Positions 14,986 through 18,559 of a stretch of 64,000 nucleotides of DNA are shown piece by piece. Origin of the DNA: Cycloclasticus sp. (GTDB taxonomy: Bacteria; Pseudomonadota; Gammaproteobacteria; Methylococcales; Cycloclasticaceae); assembly GCA_040743155.1 (NCBI GenBank), contig JBFLJU010000001.1, positions 744,001-808,000 of the forward strand, given 5' to 3'. A program made the position numbers and the translations under genes. Within the stretch, counting starts at the first letter, position 1. Each line of letters opens with the position of its first letter. Below the pieces are notes generated by a model, which saw only the letters and a list, made by a program, of their open reading frames with translations, was not told where the DNA came from and ran no database searches.

Positions 14986-15077
14986 GGAGAGATGGCCGAG
15001 CGGCTGAAGGCGCTCCCCTGCTAAGGGAGTATGGGTTTTAAAGCCCATCGAGGGTTCGAATCCCTCTCTCTCCGCCA
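14986..15077 (+). tRNA. tRNA-Ser (anticodon GCU)
   Basis: A complete class II tRNA of 92 nt with encoded CCA. The acceptor GGAGAGA pairs with TCTCTCC, followed by discriminator G and CCA. The anticodon stem CTCCC/GGGAG encloses a loop with GCT at 15020-15022. The long variable arm is ATGGG/CCCAT and the T arm is GAGGG-TTCGAAT-CCCTC. It reads AGC and AGU codons. Serine tRNA genes are common integration sites, but I see no repeat of the 3' end downstream in this window. Confidence 0.98.
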
Positions 15078-15295: not shown

Positions 15296-18200
15296 TTATT
15301 TGGCTAAATATTTTTCCATTGCTAATGAGGGCATTGGTCTGTGGAAATAATAACCTTGCACAATGTCACAATTCATTTCCATGCAAAGATCGGCTTGCTC
15401 TTTTGTCTCAACACCTTCAACAAGAACCTCTAAGCCAAGGCTGTGACCTACAACGGTAATGGCTTCCATAATAGCTTTATCATCAGGGTCCTCTGGGGCA
15501 TCACGTACAAATTCTTGATCAATCTTTAACGTTGTGACGGGGAATCGCTTTAAATAACTTAATGATGAATAGCCTGTTCCAAAATTATCAATTGATATAT
15601 TCATCCCCGATTCCTTCAGCTCTAGCAGTTTCTCAAGCACGGTATTGTCTGAATCGATCAGTACATTTTCTGTTAGTTCAATGCCAATATCTTTAGGGCT
15701 GAGCTTGTTTTCTTCTAACGCCTGCTCAATTAATGAAAAAATTCGCCCATGTCTAAAGTCTCTCCCTGATATATTTAAATCAACACGAACAGGTATTAAG
15801 CCTTGATCTTGCCATTGCCGTTGTTGTCGGCAGGCTGTGGTAATAACCCATGCTGTAATTCTATTAATGAGTCCTGTTTTTTCAGCGATGGGGATAAACT
15901 CTGCTGGCGATACCCATTCATCATCAACTGACCAACGAATTAATGCTTCACAAGCAAGCACCTCGTTATTTTCTAATTGAACCTGTGGTTGGTAATAAAG
16001 TTGAAACTCCTCGTTTTCAAGTGCCTTTCGTAACCCTGATTCAATCCATCGATCCCTTTGAAGTTTATTATTCATTTCAAGGGTAAAGAAGCGGTAACAA
16101 TTACGGCCCGCATCTTTTGCTCGATACATCGCAATATCGGCGCTTTTAAGGAGTGAATGCATATCTTCCGCGTCGTCTGGGTATAGACTGATACCAATGC
16201 TTGGTGTGATATTAATTTGATGCTCTTTTAGAGAAAATGGCTCAATAAAGGCCTGTAGTATTTTGTCTGCAACGGTAGAAGCATTTCTTTCATCTTCGGA
16301 GTGGGGCAAAATAATAACAAACTCGTCACCACCAAATCGGGCAATAAAATCATACTCCCTTAAAATAGTTGAGACTCGTGTTGAAACTTGTTGCAATAAG
16401 TCATCGCCTCTTTCATGGCCAAGCGAATCATTCACCGACTTGAAATGATCAAGATCAAAAAACAAAAGCGCTAGCTTCCCTTTAAACCGCTTGGCCTCAT
16501 CAATTTTCATTCGTAATTCTGTATCTAATTGAAAACGATTAGGCAGTTTAGTCAATTGGTCGTAGGTTGCTATATATTCGAGTTTATTTTCAATTCTTTT
16601 TCTTTCATAAATTTCATTTTCGAGGGTGACGTTCTTTTTAGTGAGTTCATCTTCAACAAAAGTACGACTCTCCTGCATTAAAACAATTAGCCAACTTCCA
16701 ATAAGCGAAATAAGGGCGAATATGTAAAATATATTGATATAGGTTGCTTGGATGTTTTGAATGGTTGCCGGATCTATATCTAATATTCTGATGGTATAGG
16801 TTGTCCAAAGAATGAAACCGATAATTGATAACAAGGCTATAAGAACCAGTATAAAACTGGTTAACCTGGACAAGCTTTCAAGGTGAAATTTATTGGCAGT
16901 GGCTATATTTGCAAACTTAAGAAGCTTTTCTTTTAAACTAAATTCTTTTACGTCTTTACATGAATCATGACAACGCGCTTCTAGTGAACAGCATAAGGAG
17001 CAAATGTTAGAAGAATACATTGAGCAGGAAGCCATGTCCTTTGCATTATATTGGATATTGCAAATACCGCAGGTATGTAGGCCGTCTTCAAAGTTTTCTG
17101 ATTGACGTGCGATGTAATACTTTCCTTTGGTGGCAAAGGCGATGAGTGGTGAGAGTATAAATGCAGTACTAAGGGCGATAATGGATGAAAATGATTGGAG
17201 ACCTTCACCTAATAAACCTGAAAAGGCAACAATAGAAATAATAGAGGCTATCAATGTGCTAAAAACGCCCACGGGGTTTATATTAAACAAGTGAGCTCGC
17301 TTAAACTCAATAACGGGAGGGCTTAACCCTAGGGGTTTATTAATAACAAGGTCGGCAACGATGGCAGCAATCCACGCGATGGCAATGTTGGAATATAACC
17401 CCAGTATCTTAGTCAATACATCAAACACGCCTATCTCCATAAGAAGTAGCGCAATTGAAATATTAAAAATAACCCAAACGACCCGTCCGGGGTGAGTGTG
17501 TGTTGTTCTTGAGAAAAAATTAGACCATGCTAATGATCCCGCATAGGCATTCGTTACATTTATTTTGATTTGCGAGATCATAACGAAAATAAAACTAACG
17601 CCCAACGCCAGAGAAGGGTGCTCAAAAACATAAGTATAAGCGGCGTTATACATATAAATGGGCTCTTTGGCTTCGATGATGGATGCGCCACCTAAGAGCA
17701 CTAATGCCGCTAAAAGAATCCCCCCCATTTGTTTTAGAAAACCGAGAATGACCCAGCCTGGCCCAGCTAAGATAACGGCAGTCCACCATTTAAGTCGATT
17801 ATCTTTTGTTTTATCGGGCATAAAACGCAAGTAATCAACTTGCTCACCAATCTGCGCAATGAGTGACAAAGAGATGCCTATTGCTAAACCAAAAGGGTAA
17901 AGAGAAAACTCTGAACTTCCAGTTTTGGTGCCTGCTAAATTAAAAAAATTGTCTAGTAGATCCGGTTCTTTAAATAGCACCATACCGAATGGAAGAATCA
18001 TTAAAGCTAACCATACCGGCTGTGTAACAAGCTGTAACCGATTTATGGCTGTCATGCCATAAAAAACAATTGGAATTATAATTATCGAGCAAAGGGCATA
18101 CCCAATTGAAAGAGGTAGGCCTGTATATAGGAAGAGTGCCTGAGCCATGATGGCTGCTTCTAACGCAAAGAATATAAAACAGAATGAAGCGTAAATTAAT

Positions 18201-18559
18201 GAGGTGATTGTTGACCCCATATAACCAAACCCTGCTGCACGGGTTAACAGGTCAATATCAATATTATTTTTTGCGGCCTGATAGCAAATAGGCAAGCCCA
18301 TCAGAAAGATTATTATCGAAGCCGTTAGGATTCCCCAAAAAGCATTCTGAAAGCCATAACTTATCGCTATGCTTGCGCCAATCGCTTCAAGGGCAAGAAA
18401 AGAGATGCTACCAATGGCGGTGTTCGCAACAAGAAATTCTGACCAGTTCCGAAAGCTTGATGGGGAATAGCGGAGTGCGTAATCCTCAATACTTTCTTCT
18501 GCAACAAATTGATTGTATTCCCGCCGCTTTATTTCAACTTGAACGGTATTGTCATTCAT
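15296..18559 (-). CDS. NCS1-like permease fused to GGDEF and EAL domains
   Basis: This single 1087-residue protein appears to join a transporter to cyclic-di-GMP enzymes. Residues about 40-480 form a multi-spanning membrane domain resembling cytosine/purine permeases of the NCS1 family (AVDYLRFMP-like segment EQVDYLRFMPD, and PIYMYNAAYTYVFEHP). Residues about 497-532 are cysteine-rich (CGIC...ICSLCC...CHDSC), suggesting metal binding. Two more helices follow (about 565-630), then a GGDEF domain with intact RFGGDEF (residues 743-747) and LPNRFQLD, then an EAL domain with intact CEALIRW (871-873). Both enzymatic motifs are complete, so synthesis and breakdown of c-di-GMP are both possible. It stands alone, convergent with tRNA-Ser. 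The transporter part may serve as a ligand sensor; this is inference. Confidence 0.85.
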   Translation of the reverse strand: MNDNTVQVEIKRREYNQFVAEESIEDYALRYSPSSFRNWSEFLVANTAIGSISFLALEAIGASIAISYGFQNAFWGILTASIIIFLMGLPICYQAAKNNIDIDLLTRAAGFGYMGSTITSLIYASFCFIFFALEAAIMAQALFLYTGLPLSIGYALCSIIIIPIVFYGMTAINRLQLVTQPVWLALMILPFGMVLFKEPDLLDNFFNLAGTKTGSSEFSLYPFGLAIGISLSLIAQIGEQVDYLRFMPDKTKDNRLKWWTAVILAGPGWVILGFLKQMGGILLAALVLLGGASIIEAKEPIYMYNAAYTYVFEHPSLALGVSFIFVMISQIKINVTNAYAGSLAWSNFFSRTTHTHPGRVVWVIFNISIALLLMEIGVFDVLTKILGLYSNIAIAWIAAIVADLVINKPLGLSPPVIEFKRAHLFNINPVGVFSTLIASIISIVAFSGLLGEGLQSFSSIIALSTAFILSPLIAFATKGKYYIARQSENFEDGLHTCGICNIQYNAKDMASCSMYSSNICSLCCSLEARCHDSCKDVKEFSLKEKLLKFANIATANKFHLESLSRLTSFILVLIALLSIIGFILWTTYTIRILDIDPATIQNIQATYINIFYIFALISLIGSWLIVLMQESRTFVEDELTKKNVTLENEIYERKRIENKLEYIATYDQLTKLPNRFQLDTELRMKIDEAKRFKGKLALLFFDLDHFKSVNDSLGHERGDDLLQQVSTRVSTILREYDFIARFGGDEFVIILPHSEDERNASTVADKILQAFIEPFSLKEHQINITPSIGISLYPDDAEDMHSLLKSADIAMYRAKDAGRNCYRFFTLEMNNKLQRDRWIESGLRKALENEEFQLYYQPQVQLENNEVLACEALIRWSVDDEWVSPAEFIPIAEKTGLINRITAWVITTACRQQRQWQDQGLIPVRVDLNISGRDFRHGRIFSLIEQALEENKLSPKDIGIELTENVLIDSDNTVLEKLLELKESGMNISIDNFGTGYSSLSYLKRFPVTTLKIDQEFVRDAPEDPDDKAIMEAITVVGHSLGLEVLVEGVETKEQADLCMEMNCDIVQGYYFHRPMPSLAMEKYLAK

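Follow-up and report, generated by a model that had tools for sequence, protein, structure and literature searches.

One open reading frame in the 64,000-nucleotide stretch of Cycloclasticus sp. DNA analysed here (the window) encodes a protein in which an NCS1-like permease domain and an eight-cysteine cluster are joined to GGDEF and EAL domains. We tentatively explain it as a transporter-type membrane receptor (transceptor) with c-di-GMP output, whose solute would most likely be of the urea/short-amide class, and we rate this account at a little under an even chance of being right. The permease–cysteine part points to a receptor module of wide distribution that no Pfam model matches. Its gene neighbourhood links it to the use of urea and short amides, and bacteria couple it to kinases or to c-di-GMP domains, one module apparently being exchanged between two signalling systems. 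It offers a testable idea of how urea and short-amide nitrogen compounds could be sensed at the membrane.

Domain architecture

The features of the protein are listed in Table 1. The coordinates, length and motif positions given in a preliminary description of this DNA were correct: the frame is single and intact, the GGDEF and EAL signatures lie where they had been placed, and both domains give strong Pfam matches. The cysteine-rich element reported there is present as well, but spans residues 497–534 rather than 497–532, and the two-helix hairpin between the cysteines and the GGDEF domain is additional to the earlier layout. Twelve helices presumably precede the cysteines, as in Mhp1, in which case the cysteine cluster and the enzymatic domains would be cytoplasmic.

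Table 1. Features of the gene and its flanking tRNA, in window coordinates
Feature	Position	Strand	Basis or content
Whole ORF, 1087 aa	15296..18559	(-)	NCS1-like permease, eight-cysteine cluster, two-helix hairpin, signalling helix, GGDEF, EAL
NCS1-like permease domain, residues 1-485	17105..18559	(-)	Fold and profile comparison
Eight-cysteine cluster, residues 497-534	16958..17071	(-)	All eight Cys kept in 110/114 distinct modules
Extra two-helix membrane hairpin, ~residues 564-635	16655..16870	(-)	Predicted helices 564-592, 597-635; hydropathy peaks 567-586, 611-622
Presumed signalling helix into GGDEF, ~residues 636-660	16580..16654	(-)	Inferred from sequence: position between hairpin and GGDEF
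GGDEF domain, residues 664-820; GGDEF 743-747, I-site RxxD 734-737	16100..16570	(-)	PF00990, E 8.1e-50
EAL domain, residues 843-1075; EAL motif 871-873	15335..16033	(-)	PF00563, E 4e-71
Asn992 codon AAT, replacing second Asp of DDFGTG	15584..15586	(-)	Codon read; Asp in other 50/51 aligned EAL rows
tRNA-Ser(gct), edge of region variable within genus	14986..15077	(+)	

A frameshift or assembly error joining two separate genes was ruled out, since the frame is uninterrupted and the same fusion type occurs in two other records, genome G196 (L046/L068) and a gammaproteobacterial MAG (L035). A search of the protein's own genome with the whole sequence returned 33 places, namely the gene itself and 32 others that match the GGDEF/EAL part only.

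Fold of the membrane domain

No credible Pfam match was obtained for the first 560 residues even at an E-value of 10, and neither the NCS1 profile (PF02133) nor the SSF (SLC5) profile matched the window protein or five homologues at E-values up to 10. The Pfam matches to the window protein included no STAC domain, if STAC is represented in the model set. PDB sequence searches with the membrane part and with its profile returned nothing useful. An AlphaFold2 model built from six sequences was of moderate confidence (mean pLDDT 62.5, pTM 0.66), and the best five rows of a Foldseek search with this model were CodB and Mhp1. In VIA-align comparisons the predicted model aligned to CodB with a Z score of 29.4 over 398 residues (3.9 Å) and to Mhp1 with scores of 25.7, 25.6 and 23.7; these fill the top four rows, the next family scoring 22.5 and the SLC5 structures ranking below the NCS1 ones at about 19–20. 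Identity to CodB and Mhp1 in the structural alignment is 14–16%. A distant protein (L063), chosen because it already matched the module, scores above the PF02133 cut-off (E = 2.3e-7) and matched the module profile with a probability of 97.7 and a pairwise E-value of 1.3e-12.

The preliminary description had proposed an NCS1-like permease, and had named the lack of an NCS1 match as grounds for abandoning that assignment. No such HMM match was found, but the predicted fold and the alignment of the module profile with an NCS1 protein both speak for a permease of this type. We call it NCS1-like rather than a member because the PF02133 profile test fails.

Distribution of the module and its outputs

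At E-values up to 0.001, the module was detected in 22 of 60 relatives, not counting the window's genome, and in none of 17 genomes of the same genus, some of which are incomplete. Among genomes of the class it was present in 18 of 368 besides the window's (one with only the distant L063), in a sample of the phylum in 61 of 397 besides the window's (several being distant NCS1-type matches), and among relatives of G196 in 2 of 57 besides G196 itself, one of them already seen. It was also found at 5 loci in genome_contigs and, at E-values up to 0.01, in 546 plasmid records, ten of which were opened; the overall sample is non-random. A scan of IMG/VR gave 105 pattern matches, with no relative among them.

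Alignment of 115 modules gave 114 distinct ones, L060 and L067 being one protein. Of these, 102 are histidine kinases, 3 are GGDEF-EAL proteins, 7 are stand-alone forms and 2 (L011, L170) are truncated where their contigs end. Output classes were assigned by BLAST comparison with a single kinase and with the domains of the window protein, and L064 was placed with the kinases by eye. No further GGDEF-EAL form was present among the 62 loci and stretches of one later classing round. Since 102 of the 114 modules are on histidine kinases and 3 on GGDEF-EAL proteins, the module is best explained as an exchangeable input unit. The fusion proposed in the preliminary description, in which a cysteine element connects a transporter-like domain with c-di-GMP domains, holds up and is best read as a sensor, the module being on a histidine kinase in 102 of 114 cases.

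The module also matches 342 Klebsiella plasmid records; in the one that was opened (L171:2879-12351), the module protein is annotated as ATP-binding and adjoins urtABCDE and formamidase.

The window protein, L046, L035 and the kinase L064 form one module clade (support 100/99), in which the module of the window protein shares 83% identity with that of L046, 78% with that of L064 and 76% with that of L035. Outputs differ inside this clade, being GGDEF-EAL in the window protein, L046 and L035, and a kinase in L064. The window's GGDEF-EAL part shares 40–41% identity with the outputs of L046 and L035, two outputs that share 67% with one another. Its identity reaches 44% with paralogues encoded by the same genome and 48% with unrelated proteins. 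By eye, a PAS-like stretch lies ahead of the GGDEF domain in L046 and L035 and is absent from the window protein. A sister grouping of the window output with that of L046 was rejected (AU p = 2e-6); a single clade of all three outputs was compatible with the data (p = 0.56), as were module trees joining L035 with L046 (p = 0.27) or joining all three GGDEF-EAL proteins (p = 0.14). A separate gain of the window's GGDEF-EAL, or output swap, is favoured by these sequence comparisons, though not proven, because the window protein is closer to L046 and L035 in its module (83% and 76% identity) than in its output (40–41%), and because the grouping with L046 is rejected. Rapid change of one output, instead of its replacement, is possible.

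Predicted activity of the GGDEF and EAL domains

The metal-binding aspartate, the motif and the I-site are all present in the GGDEF domain, and the cyclase side looks intact. In the EAL domain, the positions checked, which apart from the DDFGTG pair are those we take to be catalytic, are kept except for the second aspartate of DDFGTG, which is replaced by Asn992. The earlier designation of an intact EAL domain is therefore right for the EAL signature, but not for the full metal-ligand set of an EAL phosphodiesterase, which includes both aspartates of DDFGTG. Asn992 is unique among the 51 aligned EAL rows, the other 50 having aspartate (L068 and L163 are identical, leaving 50 distinct proteins), and a one-base sequencing error is a possible source of it. 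In PA3825-EAL the second aspartate of the motif, Asp161, binds the M2 magnesium (PMC5301497). Judging from the residues present, hydrolysis of c-di-GMP by the window's EAL domain is expected to be weak or absent.

An EAL domain that is still an active phosphodiesterase, in a protein that mainly lowers c-di-GMP, would agree with the other checked catalytic positions being intact, but N992 replaces an M2 ligand and the GGDEF domain looks competent, making this unlikely. The best reading is that of a ligand-controlled diguanylate cyclase whose EAL domain is predicted to bind rather than cut c-di-GMP. An EAL domain lacking one metal ligand with the other checked positions kept would also suit signalling in reverse, with c-di-GMP at the EAL domain or the I-site controlling uptake by the permease, and the occurrence of stand-alone forms next to urease genes hints at a module capable of transport. 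However, the kinase-fused relatives usually adjoin response regulators, which points to an input role for the module, and we consider reverse control very unlikely.

The eight-cysteine cluster

The cysteines lie at positions 497, 500, 512, 520, 523, 524, 530 and 534, and the four modules that do not keep all eight are all stand-alone forms (4 of 7 stand-alone forms against 0 of 107 others; Fisher p = 5e-6, ignoring kinship). In three of these, cysteines 512, 524, 530 and 534 are lost together and 497, 500, 520 and 523 are retained, while the fourth retains a single cysteine. The joint loss suggests that the eight cysteines form two interleaved four-cysteine sites, putatively for metal. It may represent one event, as two of the three forms are sisters in the tree, which does not include the third.

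The retention of all eight cysteines in 110 of 114 modules, with exceptions confined to stand-alone forms, would also be expected if the cluster were the main sensor (of metal, redox state or nitric oxide) and the permease mainly an anchor. We regard this as improbable: nine permease residues (E134, Q236, E239, Q240, D242, R245, K332, N334 and N337) are equally strict, being kept in 115 of 115 aligned rows, and three of the seven stand-alone forms have the full cluster, which is therefore not specific to signalling.

Gene context and the likely ligand

The regions around 40 modules (from 38 genomes), drawn from the surveys of relatives and of the class, were compared with 20 control regions at hand-picked positions in 19 of those genomes, using urease, formamidase, aliphatic amidase and UrtA/UrtB as markers (tblastn, E-values up to 1e-15, half of the marker covered). 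Urea/amide markers were found in 30 of the 40 module regions and in none of the controls (Fisher p = 1.4e-8); a marker match of at least 60% identity is present in only 12 of the 30, and the other 18 rest on UrtA/UrtB-type genes at ~38–48% identity, whose substrate is uncertain. Ten regions are free of markers (L068–L071, L087, L090, L096, L100, L102 and L104), and several regions, marker-positive and marker-free alike, are shortened by contig ends. In all eight annotated plasmid regions viewed, the module adjoins urease, urt, formamidase or amidase genes, two further regions being unannotated, and by eye the stand-alone form of Alicyclobacillus (L039) has an amidase-like gene on each side. 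For Urt-type transporters adjoining formamidase genes, transport of formamide or related amides has been proposed (PMC13209695, PMC3098086). Because markers lie near 30 of 40 modules and 0 of 20 control positions, an amide or urea is more likely than a nucleobase to be the ligand of the family.

The nucleobase ligand suggested in the preliminary description thus fits poorly with relatives that often adjoin urea, formamide and amidase genes. Sensing or transport of a nucleobase or hydantoin, as in classical NCS1 proteins, is nevertheless in line with the closest solved folds, which are cytosine and hydantoin transporters, and with a window gene that has no adjoining amide genes, in a genome without the three marker families. 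Given the lack of an NCS1 HMM match and the urease, urt, formamidase and amidase genes next to relatives, we find it distinctly improbable. The marker-free kinase loci L087 and L090, which by eye we take to resemble biuret/ureide degradation loci with an NCS2-like permease, would fit an amide or a nucleobase alike.

For the window's own clade, genome searches detected no urease alpha, formamidase or UrtA in the window's genome (G000) or in G196. The full-length modules nearest the window's among the 40 regions, L068–L071, have no urea/amide marker in the stretch covered, and none was seen by eye around L035 and L036; a partial module in G019 (L094), 62% identical over 191 residues, does have Urt-type genes. 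The GGDEF-EAL gene of G196 is, by eye, near RuBisCO-like genes. The clade of the window protein departs from the urea/amide context of the family, and its ligand may have changed.

Two stand-alone modules that adjoin urease genes (L173:8950-10557 and L072:8592-10277) are candidate urea/amide transporters that no Pfam model matches. In three regions a small lipoprotein-like gene was seen, by eye, to recur beside the module gene (L074:1747-2670, L080:7692-8600 and L081:10809-11669).

Proposed mechanism and related systems

We propose that the NCS1-like permease would bind and perhaps also carry a small solute, the urea/short-amide class being the most likely. Binding would shift the permease, and this shift would be relayed by the eight-cysteine cluster, which probably forms a pair of interleaved four-cysteine metal sites facing the cytoplasm, to the two-helix hairpin and the signalling helix, setting how the GGDEF domains of a presumed dimer meet. 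The GGDEF domain would then make c-di-GMP under feedback from its own I-site, and the EAL domain, without one metal ligand, would hydrolyse it poorly or not at all, more likely acting as a c-di-GMP-binding brake or partner site. A more elaborate version, which we hold to be decidedly unlikely, would close uptake, sensing and c-di-GMP output into a loop within one chain, a ligand-gated cyclase built on a hitherto undescribed family of NCS1-like amide/urea receptors, with an N992-disabled EAL domain that senses c-di-GMP and in turn acts on the permease.

The SLC5-STAC histidine kinases CbrA, CrbS and MxtR likewise have a LeuT-fold transporter domain joined by a linker to signalling domains; they are described as combining an SLC5 domain of 13 helices with a helical STAC bundle (PMC13022988, PMC7918813), and SLC5-STAC as also fused to diguanylate cyclase domains (PMC7096432). 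Unlike these, the window protein has an NCS1-like permease, an eight-cysteine cluster and a two-helix hairpin. The Amt-type ammonium sensor kinase of Kuenenia also uses a transporter domain as sensor, but with an ammonium transporter domain and kinase output (PMC5764959). CodB and Mhp1 resemble the window protein in predicted fold (Z 29.4 and 25.7), but it is only 14–16% identical to them, lacks a Pfam match in this part and has added cysteine and signalling parts. The module-bearing histidine kinases L040, L043 and L171 have the same permease and eight-cysteine module (~49–55% identity), but a kinase and receiver output, and lie beside urt, formamidase or urease genes. MorA-type GGDEF-EAL proteins match the window's GGDEF-EAL part at ~350 bits, the window protein differing from them in N992 and in its permease input. 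Among the literature matches listed on transporter fusions, urea/amide sensing and c-di-GMP architectures, mostly open papers, the NCS1-like eight-cysteine module is not described. Transporter–kinase fusions (CbrA and kin) and SLC5-STAC–diguanylate cyclase fusions are already in print, and relative to the literature matches listed the NCS1-like variant is new.

Genomic location

Ten regions from the same genus retain lysC and tRNA-Ser(gct), three of them ending within 1.4 kb of the tRNA, and none contains the gene; in six regions compared gene by gene, the content after the tRNA differs from that of the window. The gene is accessory and probably gained laterally, because it is absent from these ten tRNA regions and from all 17 same-genus genomes. 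Clean island ends were not identified, as the 3' end of tRNA-Ser does not recur within the window. A link of the gene to the carboxylase-like cluster of the window found no support, this cluster being unseen in the neighbourhoods of relatives read by eye. The cluster (window 19349-40241) encodes a sigma-54 regulator, an RND/MMPL transporter, a three-subunit carboxylase resembling acetone/acetophenone carboxylase, an acetyl- or acetoacetyl-CoA synthetase-like ligase and, we presume, DUF1302/DUF1329-like proteins, and, with matches below curated cut-offs, looks like a ketone-use cluster.
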